The translations under genes and the position numbers were made by a program. The notes below the pieces were generated by a model, which was not told the DNA's origin, did not search any database, and was given only the letters and a program-made list of their open reading frames with translations. Positions 21,780 through 63,920 of a stretch of DNA of 64,000 bases are shown in pieces; within the stretch, counting starts at the first letter, position 1, and each line of letters starts with the position of its first letter. The DNA lies in the IMG/VR virus record IMGVR_UViG_3300027708_002747, positions 20,682 to 84,681 of that record; one strand, written 5' to 3'. The stretch comes from a virus.

Positions 21780-23654
21780 TTATCTTAATTCATTCAAATC
21801 GAATGTACGAACACCATCAACGATAATACGGCCATAGAAGCGATTGTTCACCATCTTTTTCGCGTATCTCGTCATAATACCCTTAATAGGAGTAAAGTTG
21901 AATGGGTTATACATTGTTGGAGTTAATTGTAACGGTACGTATGGAGCGTAGATATATCCAGTGTCCAATAAAGAAGTACCTTTATGACCAATCAACACAG
22001 TGTTAGCTGGGAAGTATGGGTCACGGTATACTTGATAACGACCACTTAATGTACCAACTCTCTCGATACCCATGTTGAATTGGTCCTGCTCAGGAGCCGC
22101 ATTTGATACGTGGAAGTATTCCAAGTCATCAAAGATAGCACTGATTTCAGAAGATACAACAATCCAGTTTGCTCCACCTCTTAAAGTAGATTTGTGGATT
22201 TGAGCTGAAATTTGGTTGATTGCAGTAATCAACGTTTGGTTCCAGTCCTTTTGAGTGTAAGGAGTTGATTGGTTGTTCAGACGCTTCCATCCGTTGTAAT
22301 CCCAACGTAATGTCCAAGCCGCACCTTTACGTAAGTCACGTAAGATTTCACGGTCAATTTCAGCTGCAACTTGTTCAGATAATAAAGCTGTTAATTCAGC
22401 TTCAGCATCGATGTTGTGGAATGCCGCAACGTCTTGAGCAAGTTCTGGAGACCATTGTGCTCTTAATTTTCTTTCTGTAACAGATACAGTTACTGACTCA
22501 AGGTCAAAAGAAACTTCACCAATTTTGTCTTCAAATTCTAACTCTTCGTAACGTCTCCAAGCTGCTTTGATGTTAGTTAAAGAAGTAGCTCCGCTCCATT
22601 GAGATGCGGTTAATGTCGCTCCAGAATATCCATCAGGAGTTGTTTGACCACATGATATACATGCAGGAACTTGAGTATCAATTTCTAAATAGATAAATCC
22701 TGTAGTACTACAAATGTTATCATAATAACCACCATTACCACCCGATGTTGTAGTGTTAAATCCAGCTTGAGTACGTGTGTAGTTTGGACCTACAATACCT
22801 TGACCATATTTTTGAGTAACAACACGGAATAAAAGTGGTGTAAATGTTGCAGTATTTAAGTTAGAAGCTGCCGTTGAGTTATCAGTATAAAGAATTAAGT
22901 TAGCTAAAAACTCATCAGTATCTTGTTCTTGACCGTTTGGTCCGATTAACTTACCAACACCAGCATTTGAGAAACCTGATAATGCAACGATGATTTTTCT
23001 AAATTCAGCGTTAGAACCACCTACAGTGTAAGCTGAATATACAAGAGCTCCACTAGACCAAGCAACTGTTGGAGTCGCAGATGTAATTGTAAGGAAACGA
23101 CCTTTAGAGTAATCGAACAAACCTGCTGGGTTAAGACCTGGCTCAGTTCCTTCGTAGAACATATCATAAAGGTTCTTAGGTGCTGTACCAAATGGTTGAC
23201 CTGTTCCTGTATCATATCCTGAAAGAGGATTTCCAGGATAGTTACCAGGAGAACCTACTGGCGCGTAGTGGTCACCTGATGTAACACCAAGAGTGTCAAC
23301 TGCAGAACCACCTGAATAACCTTGAATCTTAGGTATGAAGTAGAACAATTTACCAATTGGTAAGTTCATAGCTTGTACCGATACAATCTCGTTAGACAAT
23401 AATTTAGAGAACACACGTCTGATGATAGGAAATACCACAGTTTCGAATGAACCTGAATCAGCTGATGATGCAGCTTCGTTAATTAAATGTGACGCTTGGT
23501 TTTCATACAATTGTGCAACATTTTCTTTTAGGTGGCCTCTAAGACCTTCTAGGAACCCTAATTTGTCCCATTTGTTTATAGTGTCTTCTTTGATAACTTT
23601 CAAGTGTTTAAGACCGATGTTACCTACTAATCCACTTTCTAATAATGCTCCCAT
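21780..23654 (-). CDS. Major capsid protein (gp23-like)
   Basis: 624 aa, the main shell subunit. The family is recognised by the N-terminal region (KWDKLGFLEGLRGHLKENVA), the VVFPIIRRVFSKLLSNEIVSVQAM block and the C-terminal MNNRFYGRIIVDGV-like block (here VNNRFYGRIIVDGVRTFDL). Residues 57-60 LINE followed by A61 form an (I/L)-x-E site exactly where T4 gp23 is cut by gp21, so the mature protein would start at A61. Local codon use is more GC-rich than in neighbouring genes, as expected for a highly expressed gene. A terminator lies 20 bases downstream. Confidence 0.92.
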   Translation of the reverse strand: MGALLESGLVGNIGLKHLKVIKEDTINKWDKLGFLEGLRGHLKENVAQLYENQASHLINEAASSADSGSFETVVFPIIRRVFSKLLSNEIVSVQAMNLPIGKLFYFIPKIQGYSGGSAVDTLGVTSGDHYAPVGSPGNYPGNPLSGYDTGTGQPFGTAPKNLYDMFYEGTEPGLNPAGLFDYSKGRFLTITSATPTVAWSSGALVYSAYTVGGSNAEFRKIIVALSGFSNAGVGKLIGPNGQEQDTDEFLANLILYTDNSTAASNLNTATFTPLLFRVVTQKYGQGIVGPNYTRTQAGFNTTTSGGNGGYYDNICSTTGFIYLEIDTQVPACISCGQTTPDGYSGATLTASQWSGATSLTNIKAAWRRYEELEFEDKIGEVSFDLESVTVSVTERKLRAQWSPELAQDVAAFHNIDAEAELTALLSEQVAAEIDREILRDLRKGAAWTLRWDYNGWKRLNNQSTPYTQKDWNQTLITAINQISAQIHKSTLRGGANWIVVSSEISAIFDDLEYFHVSNAAPEQDQFNMGIERVGTLSGRYQVYRDPYFPANTVLIGHKGTSLLDTGYIYAPYVPLQLTPTMYNPFNFTPIKGIMTRYAKKMVNNRFYGRIIVDGVRTFDLNELR

Positions 23655-25423: not shown

Positions 25424-26143
25424 TTATTTTCCTAAATAATCGGTAAGTCTTCCCATTAAATCAAGCGATTTGTTAACTGTTCTAGAAGCTTTTAGTTCAT
25501 TTTCTTCTTGAAGGTTCTCTTCAAACGCAAATCGACCATCAGGTTCAGTAAATAAATAAGCTCCTGGTGTTGATGGTGAGGATACCAAGTCAAAACAAAT
25601 TAATTCAAAATCGTCTTGTACTTCGTTTTGGTCACCAACTTTTTTAAGCGAACCTACCCCTCTTGATGATATACCTAACGTTACACCCAATCTTAATAGG
25701 TTTGCCGCTTGGTCACCCTTTGTTGATACGATACCTCTTTCATGGAACCCTGGAGAAGTCAAAAGTAATAGTTTACCCAATAGAACATTACCATCCCACC
25801 ACATCTCTGTAATCATGTGTGATACTCTATCTAAATCTATCAATGAAGACTCAGGGTGATTGAGTTCAGATAAAGAGGTTTTTTTACCTATATAATTTTT
25901 TATATAATTTTCAGACTCTCTCTTTAAAATTCTTTCAGGATATGTTCTACCGTTTCTATTTGGTGTATTGTATTTTTGTAGAACGGCGTAGAATTCAAAT
26001 GGTTTTGAATAATCTTTAAAATCCTTACTTTCTTGCAAGAAGGTTTGATTATTTTTTTCTGTTGGGGAAACATATCCAGCATCCATCTCAATTAAAATAC
26101 CTTTTCCTGTTTCTCTTGGACCTAATATTTTGTAATTTTGCAT
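25424..26143 (-). CDS. Prohead maturation protease (gp21-like)
   Basis: 239 aa serine protease of the T4 gp21 family, which cuts scaffold, capsid protein and internal proteins after (I/L)-x-E. Visible marks are FEFYAVLQKYNTPNRNGRTYP, LSELNHPESS with the catalytic His96, and GVTLGISSRGVGS with the catalytic Ser at 159/160. The final segment ICFDLVSSPSTPGAY is also conserved. A TATTTAT box (complement of 26159-26165) lies 15 bases upstream. Its presence gives the basis for reading the leaders of other proteins as processing signals. Confidence 0.9.
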   Translation of the reverse strand: MQNYKILGPRETGKGILIEMDAGYVSPTEKNNQTFLQESKDFKDYSKPFEFYAVLQKYNTPNRNGRTYPERILKRESENYIKNYIGKKTSLSELNHPESSLIDLDRVSHMITEMWWDGNVLLGKLLLLTSPGFHERGIVSTKGDQAANLLRLGVTLGISSRGVGSLKKVGDQNEVQDDFELICFDLVSSPSTPGAYLFTEPDGRFAFEENLQEENELKASRTVNKSLDLMGRLTDYLGK

Positions 26144-26165: not shown

Positions 26166-26630
26166 TTAAATACTTTCTATTTTATCGATTGTTTTTGTTT
26201 TACTAGATTTTGTAAGGTAAAATTTAAAATAATTTGATTTTTTAAACGATTCTGTTTCAATATAATTTATAATATTTTTAATAGAATTTTTTAACTCAGT
26301 AGATTTAAAATCGACATCTTTTTTCAAAAAGAATGTTACCTCTAAATTCATGAAAGACCTTTTTTTAACTGATATCCCACTTGTTCTCAAATCTAAATCA
26401 ACTATAAATTTTTCATTTAATAATTCATTGTCGATAATTTCTATTAAATTTGTTTTAATATTTTTATTAAAAACTGATACAATTCTATTCCAACTTTCTT
26501 CGTGTGTTTTTGGTTTGACCCAAGATTGGATATTTAAATAAATTGATTTTAAATTTTTCGAGTCAACCGTACCATATGAACATTTTATTTGTTTATATCC
26601 TCTAACCACACAACTTTTTCCTTTTTTCAT
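26166..26630 (-). CDS. Hypothetical head-cluster protein
   Basis: 154 aa, basic, mixed alpha/beta (FIVDLDLRTSGISVKKRSFM). Not recognised. It lies upstream of the protease gene in the same direction and is separated from the portal side by the opposite-strand bS21 gene. Confidence 0.6.
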   Translation of the reverse strand: MKKGKSCVVRGYKQIKCSYGTVDSKNLKSIYLNIQSWVKPKTHEESWNRIVSVFNKNIKTNLIEIIDNELLNEKFIVDLDLRTSGISVKKRSFMNLEVTFFLKKDVDFKSTELKNSIKNIINYIETESFKKSNYFKFYLTKSSKTKTIDKIESI

Positions 26631-26698
26631 TTACAAGTTTTCCATATCTTCGTTTATTTATGTAAGTAATAATAATCAACAAAAACCGAGTTGTCAAA

Positions 26699-26884
26699 AT
26701 GTTAATAATTCCCGTTAAAAATAATGATTTAGAAAAATCTTTAAAAAATTTTAAATCAAAAGTTTTAAAAACTAAAATGATTGTAGAGTTGCAAAACAGA
26801 AAAAACTACAAAAAAAAATCTGACATAAAACGTCAGATTTTAAACGATGCTATTTATAAAAATTCAAAAAATAATGAATTATAA
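26699..26884 (+). CDS. rpsU: Phage ribosomal protein bS21
   Basis: 61 aa. The start MLIIPVKNNDLEKSLKNFK follows Bacteroidetes bS21 (MLIIPVK..., then xxL+xFK+K), then VELQNRKNYKKKSDIKRQ and a helical tail, with the same length as host S21 (about 64 aa). In Bacteroidetes, bS21 with bS18 and bS6 helps sequester the 3' end of 16S rRNA, so a phage copy could change start-site choice on host ribosomes. It is alone on the + strand among leftward head genes and overlaps the end of the next gene by 6 bases. No Shine-Dalgarno is seen; a TATTTAT box is at 26655-26661. Confidence 0.8.
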   Translation: MLIIPVKNNDLEKSLKNFKSKVLKTKMIVELQNRKNYKKKSDIKRQILNDAIYKNSKNNEL

Positions 26885-27589
26885 ATTTTGAGTTAAATTC
26901 ATCAATTTAATATATTCTTTTTTAGAATGTTTTACATTTGTAAGTCTTTCTTTTGTTTCTAATAAAACTTTTGATAATTCTTCATCTGATTCAGAGATAA
27001 GAGTATCAATTTTTTGAATTGCAGTTTCTTTTAATTCAGTAAATTTTGTTTTTAAGTTTTCATCATTTGACGTTAAAACTTCTTTTACAGAATTTCTTTC
27101 AGACTCAGTTAAGTTTTCTAAATATTTTTCAGCAGTCTTATTAGCAACTTTCAACATTGAGCTAATTGGGACATTTGAAGATTTGTTTTCTTTAATTATT
27201 GGTTTTTTACCTAAAGACTCAACAATTGATTTTTTAGCAATTGATTTCTTTTCAGGTTTTAGTAAATCGCCATAAAATAGTTCATCAATTGTTTTGTATT
27301 TGTTTTCAAGTACAATATCTTTAGTCCAACTTTTGACAAAACTTACTGTATTCTCAGATAATTTAATTTGTCTAAATTCATTAGATAAATCATCAACCAA
27401 ATAAGTTGCAGTTTCTTTATCTAATTCTTTATTTTCTTTTAAATTATCATATATCGACATTAATTTACAAAAATCACTATTTTTAAGTAATTTTCTTTCA
27501 AAAAGTCTCATATCAGTTTTAAGAGTTCCTTTAACAAAGGAATCAATTAATTTATTTTCTACTAATGTTTTTATTAATCCGAATCTCAT
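26879..27589 (-). CDS. Putative prohead core protein
   Basis: 236 aa, highly charged and almost wholly helical, with many Glu/Lys. Not recognised by family. It lies between portal and protease genes, the place of the small core proteins gp67/gp68 in T4, and its composition is scaffold-like. Several L-x-E sites are present (for example SKVLLE/T near the C-terminus), consistent with digestion by the protease. A TATTTAT box (complement of 27606-27612) is 16 bases upstream. Confidence 0.55.
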   Translation of the reverse strand: MRFGLIKTLVENKLIDSFVKGTLKTDMRLFERKLLKNSDFCKLMSIYDNLKENKELDKETATYLVDDLSNEFRQIKLSENTVSFVKSWTKDIVLENKYKTIDELFYGDLLKPEKKSIAKKSIVESLGKKPIIKENKSSNVPISSMLKVANKTAEKYLENLTESERNSVKEVLTSNDENLKTKFTELKETAIQKIDTLISESDEELSKVLLETKERLTNVKHSKKEYIKLMNLTQNL

Positions 27590-27612: not shown

Positions 27613-29466
27613 TCAACCTTTAAGTAGTTTATCCAGTTGATTACCCATTTCTCCTAAGGATTCTTGTACTCGACTTAAATCAATAATGTCATCTTCATTC
27701 AACATACCCGAATTTTCTAAAATAATATTTAAATTTTCTTTGTTTCTTTCATTGTTTTCAGGTACTGTACCACCTTCAGCTGTTGGTGGTGATGGTGATG
27801 ACGGTGGTGCCGGTGATTCTCCTCCCATATCTCCCATTCCTCCTAAATCAGGTGGTGCTCCTAATCCACCTCCTGTATCAGTAGACCCTCCTTCAGTAGG
27901 TGTTCCTGCCGGTTCCCCTTCTTTCTTACCATATAACTTATCTAAGTTATCGAATATACCTGTATGAGTAATTACTTCAGCAGTTTTCTTAAGTTCTTCA
28001 CCTACAGCTCTTTCAATACGTTGTTGTTGTAAATCAAGTTTAATCTCATCATCAGAAAATCCAAGAATATGTTTTTTCGCCCATGACATAGATACTGCAG
28101 CAACACCACTACCTGGGTCAGCAACCATATCTTTATACAATAGAATTTTTTCTTTCCAAACATCTATCTTCATCAAATCAGCTTGAGTTGATGGATTTGT
28201 TAAACTTAAGTTAAAGTTTGATATCTCATCTTCAAAACCTAAAATGAATAAATGTATGATTGCAATTTTATTTAATTCAGAAATCATATTCTTTTGAATA
28301 CGATTGATAGTACGAGCAAAACGAATATCTTGTAATGATAAGTTCTTACCGTCACCAACAGTTTCTTCAAACCCTAAAAACGCTTTAGGAACACGAAGAG
28401 CTGTTAACAATTTCTTTTGGATATACTCGATGTCGGCAATCTCAGATAAGTTTTGAGCTCCCGGTAATGTCTCTATCGGTGACGCTTGTGCAGTATCTCT
28501 AACAGGAACAAAATAATCTTGGTCAACTGCCATTTGATTAAATCTCATATCGACATTACCTGTCTTATGGTCAACCGTTTGACTTCTCTTAAACTTGTTT
28601 GCAAATCTTTGGATATATGGTTCAACATCTGCGTCATCCATGTTTCCAACGAATACTTTGAATACACGTCTTTCAGGCGCTCTTGATGTTCTATAAATCA
28701 ACATAGCGTCTTCAGATAACAATAATTGTTTCCAAATACGACGTGCTTTTTCTAACATAGAAGTTCCATAAGGTAATCTTCTATCATCACCCAATAATCT
28801 AAAGTGAGCGACTTCCCATGTGTTAAACTCTAAATCTTTTTGTTTCCATTTGAACTTCAAATGTTTTTTTTCAGGATTGGTTGTTGAATCTGTTGAGTGA
28901 GCTCCCATACCCGCTTCCAATCTTTCAATCTCAATGATTGGTAATTGCATACATCCTATAATACCTTTTTCAGGGTCTAATTTAAGATACACAAAATTAT
29001 CACCATACTTACATGTGTTTCTTGTCCACATAGGTAAGTTAGTATTAATATCCAAAGCGTTATTAAATAAATCACCTAAAATTGATTTAATTCTTGATGA
29101 CTCAGAATAGATTTGCAACATATAACCATCCTGATTAATTGTTGTTGACTCTTCGGCATAAATGTCTAAAGCCGCACCAATTTCAGGAGTAAATTCCATT
29201 GACTCGTAGTCATAAAAAGACGATAAACGAGTTGGTTCATAAAAAACCGCTTGTGTGTATAGATTATTTTCAACCCTACCCCATTGGTTCGCTAAATAAT
29301 AAGTTTGTTGGGCTTGAAGTTTTTCTCTGTCGAATTCTGACTTGGAAGTTGTTTTTAATAACTCACTTTTATCATATTTGTACGTAGGGTAATCCTGGCC
29401 CAATAAAGAATTAGGCCCAAATGTCTGGGATAACCTCTGCCATACCGTTAGTTTATTTTCACTCAT
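27613..29466 (-). CDS. Portal vertex protein (gp20-like)
   Basis: 617 aa, forms the dodecameric ring for DNA entry and exit. Recognisable blocks include WGRVENNLYTQAVFYEPTR, MEFTPEIGAALDIYAEEST, FRLLGDDRRLPYGTSMLEKAR, MLIYRTSRAPERRVFKVFVG and RTINRIQKNMISELNKIA, all in gp20 order. The C-terminal 90 residues hold a Gly/Pro-rich linker (about 525-575) not usual in T4 gp20. A TATTTAT box (complement of 29475-29481) is 8 bases upstream. Confidence 0.93.
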   Translation of the reverse strand: MSENKLTVWQRLSQTFGPNSLLGQDYPTYKYDKSELLKTTSKSEFDREKLQAQQTYYLANQWGRVENNLYTQAVFYEPTRLSSFYDYESMEFTPEIGAALDIYAEESTTINQDGYMLQIYSESSRIKSILGDLFNNALDINTNLPMWTRNTCKYGDNFVYLKLDPEKGIIGCMQLPIIEIERLEAGMGAHSTDSTTNPEKKHLKFKWKQKDLEFNTWEVAHFRLLGDDRRLPYGTSMLEKARRIWKQLLLSEDAMLIYRTSRAPERRVFKVFVGNMDDADVEPYIQRFANKFKRSQTVDHKTGNVDMRFNQMAVDQDYFVPVRDTAQASPIETLPGAQNLSEIADIEYIQKKLLTALRVPKAFLGFEETVGDGKNLSLQDIRFARTINRIQKNMISELNKIAIIHLFILGFEDEISNFNLSLTNPSTQADLMKIDVWKEKILLYKDMVADPGSGVAAVSMSWAKKHILGFSDDEIKLDLQQQRIERAVGEELKKTAEVITHTGIFDNLDKLYGKKEGEPAGTPTEGGSTDTGGGLGAPPDLGGMGDMGGESPAPPSSPSPPTAEGGTVPENNERNKENLNIILENSGMLNEDDIIDLSRVQESLGEMGNQLDKLLKG

Positions 29467-30836: not shown

Positions 30837-32582
30837 TTATCTTCGTCCCCCGAATAACCATAAATAGTTTTCGTAGTCACTTTTAGTCGCTTCTCGTTTA
30901 AAGTTTTCTTGTTGATGTGAAATTACTGGGTCTGTAAATTGTCTTCTGTTAAATTCATTTGTATTAACAGTCCACGAATCAATCATCGCCTTTGTTTGAT
31001 TTGTTACCTTATTCAGAGATGAAAATGATGTTTCACCAACATAAAGAGCCATGGCAACTGACATAATCAAGTCATCATGTTGTCCCTTTTGGTGGTCAGG
31101 TCGTCCATTCACATAAATAAATGTGTTCATTTCATTTAACAACCTACTTGAATTTATTCTAAATCCATGTCTTAAATATTCTTCAAATGTTGCAATAATT
31201 TGAACTCTTTTAGCATTAAAGTTAATTCCCGGTATTTTTTCTGTTGCCTTTGGGTCGTATTGCCACTTATTTGAAATATCAACTCCATCAACATACACAT
31301 TTCTATATCCCAACTCTCTCAATCGTAAAGATGTTGTAACTCCCATACCACCAGTAATATCCACAACAATAAATGCGTTATACATATTACCCCATTTATA
31401 ACATATTTCAGCCAAAGTGTCAGGAGGAAGTTTACCAACATACTCAGCGACCTGTTCTCTTGTATCAAAATCAACAATTTGAAATGTTGAGAAGTCCTCA
31501 CTGTCACCACGAGATACGTCAACACCCATAATATATTTTTTACCTATTTCAGGTTCTTTCCAAATCCATAGTCCACCACCCATCATCTTTGTAGGCGGCT
31601 CCTTAACCATATTTACTCTTAAATCTTCTAACATATCAGAATTAAATACATTATCCCCCGAACCAAGAAACGCACATTCCAACTCCTGATTAACCTTACG
31701 TTTATCGTATTTAAGTTTCTTTACCATTGATTCATACCAAGAAGAACTTGGTTTGTACCCCTGAGAAATTAATTCTTTTATTTCATCAAAGTTTTTTTCC
31801 TTATTGTTATATTCAATAATTTCAACATTTGGGTATTCATTACGATTTAAATAATAATGAATAACATCTTTAACGTTGATTAATGATAAATCTTTAGCAT
31901 ATCTTGGGTCTTTCCACCAAACCATTGGGGAAATTTTAAATTCATTCATTCCCTTTAACGCTTGGTCGTAAATTTCATAATAGATTGCGTCATATCCGTT
32001 TGGTGTTGATACAACTATCACCTTACCACCTGTTGATAAGGATGCCATACAAGCCGCCCAAAAATCACTATCGGCCTCAATGTACGCAGCCTCATCAAAT
32101 ATTAATATTGTGGGGGTATAACCACGAAGAGCATCCTTAGATGTTGCAACCGCCTTAACTTCACATCCATTTGTTAATTTAAAATGTCTTTGTGAGTTTT
32201 TTTCAGATGAAAAACCAACACCAACCCAACTAGGCCATTGGTCGGTAAATCCTCTAATCTTATTTGCAACTTCAACCGCAGTATCCAACTTATTTGCAAT
32301 AATCAAAACTTTTTCAGGACTATTCTTTTTAGCAAAAACAAGTTTTTTTGATGACCAAGCGGCAGTTACCGTAGATACACCAGCTTGTCTATACTTTAAT
32401 GCAATATTTTCATTATAATTTTCGTAATCCTCAACCAAACTAATTTGGTCAGGGAATAACTCTAACGGGACATACTTTGAAACAGTGTTGTCATATGTCT
32501 GTAAATAAGTTTTAAGGGCGTATGGTGTTGATTTCATACACTTGGCATACTCCATTAAAACGGCTTCTCTAGATAAACTCAT
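30837..32582 (-). CDS. Terminase large subunit (gp17-like)
   Basis: 581 aa DNA-packaging motor. The ATPase has Walker A RQAGVST (65-71), Walker B ILIFDEAAYIE (about 160) and the coupling motif VVSTPNG. The nuclease has MGVDVSRGDSEDFS (about 350), IVVDITGGMG and the final HDDLIMSVAMAL. Length and order match T4-type TerL. A TATTTAT box (complement of 32588-32594) is 5 bases upstream, and a terminator stands before it. Confidence 0.95.
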   Translation of the reverse strand: MSLSREAVLMEYAKCMKSTPYALKTYLQTYDNTVSKYVPLELFPDQISLVEDYENYNENIALKYRQAGVSTVTAAWSSKKLVFAKKNSPEKVLIIANKLDTAVEVANKIRGFTDQWPSWVGVGFSSEKNSQRHFKLTNGCEVKAVATSKDALRGYTPTILIFDEAAYIEADSDFWAACMASLSTGGKVIVVSTPNGYDAIYYEIYDQALKGMNEFKISPMVWWKDPRYAKDLSLINVKDVIHYYLNRNEYPNVEIIEYNNKEKNFDEIKELISQGYKPSSSWYESMVKKLKYDKRKVNQELECAFLGSGDNVFNSDMLEDLRVNMVKEPPTKMMGGGLWIWKEPEIGKKYIMGVDVSRGDSEDFSTFQIVDFDTREQVAEYVGKLPPDTLAEICYKWGNMYNAFIVVDITGGMGVTTSLRLRELGYRNVYVDGVDISNKWQYDPKATEKIPGINFNAKRVQIIATFEEYLRHGFRINSSRLLNEMNTFIYVNGRPDHQKGQHDDLIMSVAMALYVGETSFSSLNKVTNQTKAMIDSWTVNTNEFNRRQFTDPVISHQQENFKREATKSDYENYLWLFGGRR

Positions 32583-37786: not shown

Positions 37787-39850
37787 ATGACAGATTCAGT
37801 TGAAGAGGGTGGGAAACTACCAAAAAAGACAGAGGTAAACTCAAGTACCCCTGTTTTAGATAATTTTAGTCGTGACCTTATCAAACTTGCCGAAGAAGGT
37901 AAGTTAGACCCCGTTGTCGGTAGGGAAGATGAAATATTACGTATTGCTCAAATTCTTTCAAGAAGAAAGAAAAATAACCCAATTATCATCGGTGAACCTG
38001 GTTGTGGTAAGACGGCGATTGTTGAGGGATTGGCAATGAAGATTTTTGAAGGTGATTGTCCAAGAAACTTGGTCGATAAACGTATTCTATCATTAGAGAT
38101 GAATTCAGTTGTTGCAGGAACAAAATATCGTGGTCAATTTGAAGAACGATTAAAGGTTATCTTGGAAGAAATTCAAGCGAACCCAAATGTTATTCTATTC
38201 ATTGACGAAATTCATACCATTGTAGGAGCAGGTAACGCCTCAGGTTCTATGGATGCCTCCAACATCTTAAAACCAGCGTTATCAAGAGGTGAAATACAAT
38301 GTATTGGAGCCACCACATTGGATGAATACAAAAAACAAATTGAGAAAGATGGGGCGTTAGACAGACGCTTCCAAAAAGTAATTGTCAGTTCATCAACAAA
38401 AGAAGAAACATTACAAATTCTTAAGAATGTTAAAGACAAATACGAAAATTATCATAAAGTAAATTATACTGATAATATTCTACAAATCTGTGTTGATTTA
38501 GCAGAACGATATATCACCGACAGAGAGTTCCCTGACAAAGCATTTGACATCTTGGATGAAGTCGGTGCAAGAGCTCAGGTAGATGTGAAAAATCCTGAAA
38601 TAATTGACGAATTAAAACGTCAGGCCTTAGAGATTAAACAACAAAAATTACTTGTTGTTAAAAAACAGAATTACGAAGAAGCCGCAAACTTAAGAGATAA
38701 AGAAAAGAAAGTTTTATCACAACTTGATATTGAAAAGAAAAAGTTTGAACAAACTCTTTTGGATAATAGAAAAACAATTTCAGAGGAATTGGTTTATGAG
38801 GTGGTGTCAACAATGACAAAAATACCTCTAACAAAACTTAATTTAGATGATAAGATTGCTCTTATTAATTTAGAAGAAGAATTAAATAAATCAGTCATTG
38901 GACAAAAAGAGGCGGTTACAAAGATTGCAAAATCTATTCGTAGAAATAGATTAGGTATTAAAGACCCAAATAAACCAATTGGTTCATTTATATTCTTAGG
39001 TTCAACAGGTGTTGGTAAGACATTATTGGCAAAAGAATTGGCAAAACAAATCTTTGGAAGCGATGAAAATCTTATTCGAGTTGATATGTCTGAATACCAA
39101 GATAAACATACCGTATCTCGTTTAATTGGTTCACCTCCTGGTTATGTAGGATATGATGAAGGTGGACAACTTACAGAACAGGTAAAAACCAAACCATACT
39201 CTGTAGTATTATTTGACGAGGTTGAGAAAGCTCACAAAGACATATTCTCAGCATTACTTCAACTATTGGATGAAGGTTACATGACAGATAGTTTTGGAAG
39301 AAAAATCAATTTCAAAAACTGTTTAATCATTATGACATCAAATCTTGGGGTAAAAAAGATGCAAGAGTTTGGAGCAGGGGTTGGATTTAGTAAGACAGGT
39401 AATGTGTATACCAATGAAGAACTTAAGAAAACAATGTTAAACAAAGAATTAAAGAACCATTTCGCGCCTGAGTTTATCAATCGTTTGGATGAAGTAATTG
39501 TATTCAACACACTTCAAAATGACGATATCCAAAAGATTGTTTTGGTCGAAGTCAACAAATTAAAATCTCGTTTATCAAAATTGGGATATAACATTAACTT
39601 CGGTCAGTCAGTAATTGATTTTGTTTCAAAAGTTGGATTTGATGATGTTTACGGAGCACGTCCTTTGAAGAGAGCAATTCAAGAAAAGATTGAAGACTAC
39701 ATTTCAGATGAAGTATTACGTGAAAAAATTGTAATGGATAAAACCTACAATATTGAAATTAATGAAGAGGAAGTGTCGATATCGGAGGTTGAGGTCCAAC
39801 CTGATGAAACGCCAAAAGTGAAAAGAACAAGAAAGAAAAAGGGGGAATAA
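37787..39850 (+). CDS. ClpC/ClpA-like AAA+ unfoldase
   Basis: 687 aa from the ATG at 37787; an in-frame TTG at 37742 is less likely because it would leave almost no leader after the -7 element. Two AAA+ modules: D1 with Walker A GEPGCGKT (69-76) and [16 protein letters not shown]2 with GSTGVGKT and [12 protein letters not shown] short UVR-like middle segment ([19 protein letters not shown]) points to the ClpC type. The usual N-terminal substrate domain is missing. [11 protein letters not shown] in D2 contains a VGF that corresponds to the ClpP-docking loop, so it may work with host ClpP. Ends in a strong terminator. Confidence 0.88.
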
Positions 39851-41866: not shown

Positions 41867-42261
41867 GGGGATGTTTTTGGATTTGACAGGTATGAATCTG
41901 TCATAAAACGCACGTCGGGGCTAAACTAACCCTGTAAAACTGGTTTAAAACACAAACGGCAACACAATTGCAAAACTTTCTACACTCGGTTTAATCCGTA
42001 CTGAAGAAGTAACTGTAGCCTAATCTAAGATTAGTATACAACGGGGTCGGTGAGCATATAACCTTGCAACAGAAGCTTGTACCGTGGTGTGGTTTCTATC
42101 CGAAAAGGAACAAAGTGGAGGATTAGTTCTCAGTAAACCGAACCACTATAAAATAAGGGAATTGTGAAGTTTCGGATTGTTTAGAAAAACAATGACCTAA
42201 ACGTGTAGTGTTTTATGGTCGACATATTTGGACCGGCGTTCGAGTCGCCGCATCTCCACCA
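41867..42261 (+). ncRNA. ssrA: Phage tmRNA (transfer-messenger RNA)
   Basis: 395-base one-piece tmRNA that rescues stalled ribosomes and tags nascent chains. Acceptor stem GGGGATG pairs with CATCTCC (42251-42257) and has the G3-U70 pair read by alanyl-tRNA synthetase; the CCA is encoded. The T arm CGGCG-TTCGAGT-CGCCG and the D-like GGATTTGACAGG are conserved. PK1 is visible: GGG (41918-41920) with CCC (41930-41932), and TAAAC (41922-41926) with GTTTA (41943-41947). Ten bases later comes GGC at 41958, offset 92 from the 5' end, near-identical to E. coli (90). Reading from there gives 21 codons (GNTIAKL ... TEEVTVA) and TAA at 42021-42023 inside a hairpin. Confidence 0.93.
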
Positions 42262-44731: not shown

Positions 44732-44741
44732 AAAACAATAG

Positions 44742-44813
44742 TAGTTCCGCTTGGACTCGAACCAAGAATAGAAGATTAGAAATCTACTGTGATATCCCTT
44801 TCACCACGGAACC
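44742..44813 (-). tRNA. tRNA-Arg (anticodon TCT)
   Basis: 72 bases. Acceptor GGTTCCG/CGGAACT (G1-U72 at the end), D stem GTGA/TCAC with GG in the loop, anticodon loop TTTCTAA, T stem CTTGG/CCAAG with TTCGAGT loop, discriminator A. The anticodon TCT (44778-44780 on the complement) reads AGA and AGG, frequent in this AT-rich genome. CCA is not encoded. The anticodon stem has a T28-T42 mismatch. Confidence 0.85.
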
Positions 44814-58923: not shown

Positions 58924-59238
58924 ATGAAAGAATACATTAAAAAACAAATCGGAAACATCAAACAGTTTTCATTCGCAGAGATGACTTCCAATAGTTCAGG
59001 AAAGACATCAGGAAGTGGTACTGCAGGTCTTTACATCGTCTTTATTGGAGGTTTGACATTCCTTATGGGTTGTGTGGATAAAATGTTTTTAAACAAAGAT
59101 ATGGACGTTATAACACAGTCAATAATCCTTGTTGGAATTGGGGCAACTCTTTTAGGATATAGAAAATCAAAAGATAAGACAGAAGAACCTACGGTAGAAG
59201 AAGTAACAGAAACTACTGAAGAAGAAATTAACGGTTAA
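58924..59238 (+). CDS. Two-helix membrane protein
   Basis: 104 aa. Charged N-terminus (MKEYIKKQIGNIKQFSFAE), Ser/Gly linker, then hydrophobic helices at about 34-52 (AGLYIVFIGGLTFLMGC) and 62-80 (IILVGIGATLLGY), and an acidic tail. Possible membrane/holin-type role; not recognised. It overlaps the end of the convergent gene. Confidence 0.55.
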   Translation: MKEYIKKQIGNIKQFSFAEMTSNSSGKTSGSGTAGLYIVFIGGLTFLMGCVDKMFLNKDMDVITQSIILVGIGATLLGYRKSKDKTEEPTVEEVTETTEEEING

Positions 59239-63095: not shown

Positions 63096-63920
63096 ATGAA
63101 AAACACAGAAACTTACAACGAGTTAGTTCAAAAAATGAGAACATTCTTCCAAAACAAAGGTTTTAAAGAAGTTCCAACCCAATCAAGATTATCAATCTTG
63201 GCGGCGTGTGAAAATCCACACTCAATAACAACATTTAATTATCAAGGAGAAGTATGGCCACTACCACAGACAGGTCAAATGTGGTTAGAATACGAACTTC
63301 TTAAGAATCCTGAATGGAACGGTGTCTATTGTATTTCAACGTCTTATAGACAAGAAAAAGACCCAATTCCAGGTCGTCACGAAATGATTTTTCCCATGTT
63401 TGAGTTTGAATCAAAAGGTGGAATGAAAGAAATGTTAAAACTTGAATTTGAACTTTTAGATTATTTAGGTTTTGATTCACCTGTAGAAGTTAACTACGAT
63501 GATGTATGTGAAGAATATGGTGGAGTTTCAATCTTAGAAAACGAACACGAAACAAGAATGTGGGAAGAAAAAGGACCGGTAGTATCACTTCAAAATTTCC
63601 CATACAGAACAAACCCATTTTGGAACATGAGAGAAAGTGAAAACAAAATATTCAACAAAGTTGATGTAATCCTTTACGGGCAAGAAACAATTGGTTCTGC
63701 AGAAAGAAGTTCCAACGTAGAAGAAATGAGAAATAATTTCTACACAATAGAAAATGGAAAATATTCTGAAAAACTATTTGAACTATTTGGTAAAGAAAGA
63801 GTTGAAAAAGAATTAGAAGAATTCTTATCACATGATTTCTTCCCAAGATTTGGTGGAGGGATTGGAATGACTCGTTTATCAAGAGCTTACGAACTACTAC
63901 AACAAGAAGTAACAGTATAA
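63096..63920 (+). CDS. Class II aminoacyl-tRNA synthetase-like protein (AsnRS/AspRS core)
   Basis: 274 aa, catalytic core only. Motif 2 is TSYRQEKDPIPGRHEMIFPM and then FEFE; motif 3 is FGGGIGMTRLSRAY at the C-terminus. These and VILYGQETIGSAERS belong to the AsnRS/AspRS type. The N-terminal OB-fold that binds the anticodon is absent (normal AsnRS is about 430-470 aa), so it is not a full tRNA synthetase. The family includes stand-alone cores that make amino acids or amidate them, such as archaeal asparagine synthetase-related proteins. It has its own terminator downstream. Confidence 0.8.
   Translation: MKNTETYNELVQKMRTFFQNKGFKEVPTQSRLSILAACENPHSITTFNYQGEVWPLPQTGQMWLEYELLKNPEWNGVYCISTSYRQEKDPIPGRHEMIFPMFEFESKGGMKEMLKLEFELLDYLGFDSPVEVNYDDVCEEYGGVSILENEHETRMWEEKGPVVSLQNFPYRTNPFWNMRESENKIFNKVDVILYGQETIGSAERSSNVEEMRNNFYTIENGKYSEKLFELFGKERVEKELEEFLSHDFFPRFGGGIGMTRLSRAYELLQQEVTV

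Follow-up and report, generated by a model that had tools for sequence, protein, structure and literature searches.

Why a phage should keep a gene for a ribosomal protein amid its head genes, and on the opposite strand to them, is the question raised by the plus-strand open reading frame at positions 26699-26884 of the window, by which we mean the whole stretch of 64,000 nucleotides analyzed here from the virus record IMGVR_UViG_3300027708_002747. Its 61-aa product, MLIIPVKNNDLEKSLKNFKSKVLKTKMIVELQNRKNYKKKSDIKRQILNDAIYKNSKNNEL, scored above the curated cut-offs of both Pfam PF01165 (E 3e-10, 40.1 bits; cut-off 27) and NCBIfam TIGR00030 (37.6 bits; cut-off 28.95), matched PHROG 21469 ('ribosomal protein S21'), and could be aligned over residues 1-55 with the bS21 chain of the Flavobacterium johnsoniae ribosome (7jil). 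These results confirmed the bS21 identity put forward in the original prediction, and its assignment to the Bacteroidia form of the protein was equally upheld; Tyr53 (codon at 26855-26857, plus strand) corresponds to F. johnsoniae Tyr54. The AlphaFold2 model comprised three helices with a mean pLDDT of 84, and a Foldseek search with this model returned three PDB matches in all, each of them a ribosome chain (one being bS21c) and each weak, none reaching significance. No second bS21 was present in the whole 84,681-base virus record containing the window.

The genes surrounding bS21 all lie on the minus strand and, according to PHROG matches, encode the major head protein (21780-23654; phrog_138, E 4.6e-65), the head maturation protease (25424-26143; phrog_207, E 2.7e-43), the portal protein (27613-29466; phrog_213, E 7.3e-65) and the large terminase subunit (30837-32582; phrog_2, E 1.1e-39), so that the coordinates and the strand contrast noted at the outset both stand. 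Immediately adjacent to bS21 are two further minus-strand genes, namely a divergent one encoding 154 aa (26166-26630), separated from the bS21 start by 68 bases, and a convergent one encoding 236 aa (26879-27589), which overlaps bS21 by 6 bases. Family searches including PHROG gave no match for the former and sub-threshold matches only for the latter. Scans of IMG/VR yielded 129 viral loci with bS21, some of their contigs having been fetched twice, and among the loci long enough to show the respective neighbor the divergent gene was in place in 124 of 127 and the convergent gene in 120 of 122. Departures from this order were seen in L229, in L248 and L258, both distant, and in L238, on whose contig little sequence follows bS21.

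A phylogeny with host bS21, which the original prediction had proposed as a check, placed the phage copies in one group (support 80/98) that was distinct from every host sequence; the tree comprised 115 proteins, was built on 64 columns, does not settle the deeper branching order and had a bootstrap that had not converged. The only phage sequence falling outside the main phage group was the distant L248. Comparison of the window copy with the other genes of its clade gave dN/dS values of 0.05-0.27, which indicates purifying selection on the protein; together with the retention of bS21 and both neighbors in place across viral loci, this argues that the gene is there by more than chance. The window gene is a real, conserved phage bS21. 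A search for cultivated relatives in the phage collection gave no close bS21, the best matches being uncultured huge phages at 43-47% identity, and the terminase large subunit was only 27% identical to those of Flavobacterium phages; by sequence resemblance, the host of the virus would be a member of the Bacteroidetes.

One viral-labelled contig, L229, carries a bS21 that differs very little from a host copy and was considered as a phage that had freshly captured a host gene. This was rejected, as its bS21 clusters with the host copy L270 (100/98) and the contig has none of the phage neighbors; L229 is probably a host or prophage sequence. Both L229 and L270 lack an extended Shine-Dalgarno (SD) sequence and have a His close to position 54, and the pair is probably a sign that rpsU autoregulation has been lost in some hosts.

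We next considered the residues that the phage protein has kept. In F. johnsoniae, the anti-Shine-Dalgarno (ASD) tail of 16S rRNA sits in a pocket formed by bS21, bS18 and bS6, where Tyr54 stacks on A1534 (PMC9976891). The equivalent position was aromatic in all 49 distinct aligned phage proteins, with 45 Tyr, 3 Phe and 1 His; in a broader sample of the phylum, chosen by profile score and uneven, 25 of 29 copies had Arg at position 54. Since the ASD-hiding residue is kept, the phage bS21 would be expected to maintain initiation that is blind to the SD and not to bring SD reading back, and it is uncertain whether it re-tunes the reading of SD versus non-SD messages, as had been suggested.

We then turn to the messages themselves. 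Pairing energies were computed against the 16S tail GGAUCACCUCCUUUCU, which we take to be that of Flavobacterium 16S rRNA. Only 4 of 79 phage genes had leaders at or below -7 kcal/mol, which is no more than base composition gives (4.4 in shuffles of the same leaders); the claim that this phage almost lacks SD sites is thereby borne out, and the phage does not use them. Mock regions taken 60 bases further upstream reached -7 kcal/mol in 15 of 79 cases, the start-proximal pairing being far weaker (P 6e-8). This difference arises because the mock regions are richer in G and the leaders G-poor, and active avoidance of SD sites was rejected given the agreement with the shuffles. The window contains a single gene whose leader is strongly SD-like, at 58924-59238 (plus strand; GGGAGGT, -11.6 kcal/mol); about 1.5% of 26-base segments drawn at random from the window show pairing of this strength, so chance may account for it.

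A further difference between phage and host was found in the leader of bS21 itself. An extended SD was present in every one of the 80 rpsU loci from Flavobacterium and its near relatives, with energies from -17.6 to -24.8 kcal/mol, and in none of the 130 phage bS21 leaders, all of which paired at -5.2 kcal/mol or weaker; the window leader (26673-26698, plus strand), included in this count, reached -4.6 kcal/mol. In F. johnsoniae, rpsU is almost alone in having an extended SD, and ribosomes free of bS21 thereby boost bS21 synthesis (PMC9976891). The phage leader thus lacks the sole element through which rpsU is known to respond to the level of bS21, and from its sequence the phage gene looks deaf to host feedback. 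A few Bacteroidota hosts (L270, L275 and L278) likewise lack the extended SD, so the donor of the phage gene may have lacked it as well; alternatively, the extended SD may have been lost incidentally when the gene was captured.

The reversed orientation had been taken to suggest a timing separate from that of the head genes, a view that was not supported. Transcripts of bS21 in related phages appear late, together with those of the head genes (Chen et al. 2022, PMC9723584), and the window gene shares an upstream motif with them. Of the 35 genes whose upstream space is free, 17 had TATTTAT within the 60 bases before the start, compared with 2.9 +/- 1.6 after shuffling, an approximately sixfold excess, and the head protease, portal and terminase were among these genes. 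The motif stands mostly 11-27 bases before the start codon; the bS21 copy (26655-26661, plus strand), at -44, is farther than most, and the region holding it also serves the divergent gene. This copy is kept throughout the window clade, whereas among sister clades several have TATATTTATA at about -25 to -33 and others have no exact copy. TATTTAT looks like a phage promoter element, possibly a late one, and its presence at both bS21 and head genes fits a shared late control. Read in the sense direction, TATTTAT matches the reverse complement of the T4 late promoter core, TATAAATA; its reading as a T4 late promoter was rejected on account of this inversion, and homology is not claimed.

Taken together, we favor, with a probability of roughly 0.6, the reading that the gene encodes a functional bS21 captured long ago from a Bacteroidetes host, which would be made late in infection alongside the head proteins, occupy the bS21 place on host 30S subunits and escape host feedback. 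On such subunits the aromatic residue would keep the 16S tail away, leaving ribosomes SD-blind in a manner suited to phage messages that have no SD and may be preferred. With its SD-less leader, synthesis of the phage protein would be untied from the pool of bS21-free ribosomes. As host rpsU is best translated by these ribosomes, filling them with phage bS21 should lower its expression, and the phage protein would come to replace that of the host. The identity, position, conservation, selection, aromatic residue and SD absence on which this account draws come from the present analysis, and the late transcription in relatives, the uptake by E. coli ribosomes of a bS21 from a different phage and the host autoregulation from published work. 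Combining the published host mechanism with our leader comparison, a stricter form can be put forward as a tentative possibility, namely a one-way switch in which a late, SD-less and ASD-hiding phage bS21 would fill the bS21-free ribosomes and shut off host bS21 synthesis while its own synthesis continues; if true, host ribosomes would change over to the phage form with no protease involved.

In a simpler account, the bS21 supplied by the phage would be an ordinary one that keeps 30S subunits from running short of the protein when late protein synthesis is heavy, message choice being unchanged and the SD absence without special purpose. This agrees with the ASD-hiding residue of the phage copies and with the finding that bS21 is essential for growth and that ribosomes short of bS21 are inefficient at initiating on messages without an SD (PMC9976891). 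We nevertheless consider it rather doubtful, as the phage copies form a group of their own with shared changes in the first-helix region (also seen in PMC9723584), where the host Arg21, Phe23, an acidic residue and Gly/Thr near positions 24-28 are replaced by phage-type residues, and such changes go beyond the needs of a plain substitute. The same replacements lie at the heart of the proposal by Chen et al. (PMC9723584) that ribosomes containing phage bS21 favor phage leaders owing to the altered first helix, which lies beside the path of the mRNA. This proposal appears equally doubtful for the window, in which no phage-specific leader element beyond A/T-richness was seen, host leaders being SD-less too. 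A role off the ribosome, with bS21 packaged in the virion (a possibility raised in PMC9723584) or acting as an RNA-binding protein in head assembly, would account for the constant place in the head cluster but is highly unlikely, as such work would demand neither the ribosome-contacting aromatic residue nor the three helices of the model.

Besides bS21, the window harbors other genes related to translation and proteolysis. A tmRNA is located at 41867-42261 (plus strand; Rfam RF00023, 126 bits), with the predicted tag AKLSTLGLIRTEEVTVA. The tmRNA tags of relatives end in VTVA or VSVA, whereas those predicted for four Bacteroidota hosts are short and end in ALAA or AMAA. With such an altered terminus, tagged proteins may escape host ClpXP; alternatively, the tag reading frame may have been mispredicted. 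A large AAA+ protein of the ClpA/ClpB type is encoded at 37787-39850 (plus strand; phrog_4871, E 3e-237) and falls below the curated cut-offs of ClpA and ClpB; it is a possible partner in phage-directed proteolysis or disaggregation. Additionally, a 274-aa protein resembling class II aminoacyl-tRNA synthetases (63096-63920, plus strand; PF00152, 47 bits) gave weak matches only, to AsnRS, AsnA and EpmA, and reached no NCBIfam whole-protein cut-off, and a tRNA-Arg with the anticodon TCT (44741-44813, minus strand) adjoins other translation-related phage genes.

The clearest candidates for viral alteration of host ribosome composition are ribosomal proteins encoded by phages. The gene, its arrangement and the idea of ribosome hijacking are already known. 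Chen et al. (2022) described Bacteroidetes phages with a reverse-strand bS21 amid terminase, capsid, protease and portal genes, flanked by two conserved hypothetical genes, in which position 54 is aromatic in every phage copy and the mRNA-facing part is divergent (PMC9723584). Wherever that study can be checked from sequence, the window agrees with it: like those myophages, this AT-rich Bacteroidetes phage has its bS21 strand-opposed to the same four head genes and between two conserved hypothetical flanks, with an aromatic residue 54 and no difference in gene arrangement. A search of the text of PMC9723584 found no mention of promoters or autoregulation. The pelagiphage HTVC008M likewise encodes a bS21, and this protein, expressed in E. 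coli, was shown to be incorporated into ribosomes (Mizuno et al. 2019, PMC6375957); HTVC008M, however, infects a host from another phylum, where the ASD-hiding context of the Bacteroidia is missing. Flavobacterium rpsU and its product share with the phage gene the protein family, the Bacteroidia-type start and the ASD-stacking residue, but the host gene is autoregulated and preceded by an extended SD, which the phage gene lacks; the latter also carries phage-type first-helix residues. McNutt et al. (2023) discussed phage bS21 and proposed the host autoregulation as a counter-defence (PMC9976891). What is new here is that the phage bS21 leader lacks the host rpsU control sequence, a testable point: since the flavobacterial circuit of ASD hiding and rpsU autoregulation has been worked out, a phage copy without the regulatory element allows rewiring of ribosome composition during infection to be tested directly and at little cost.
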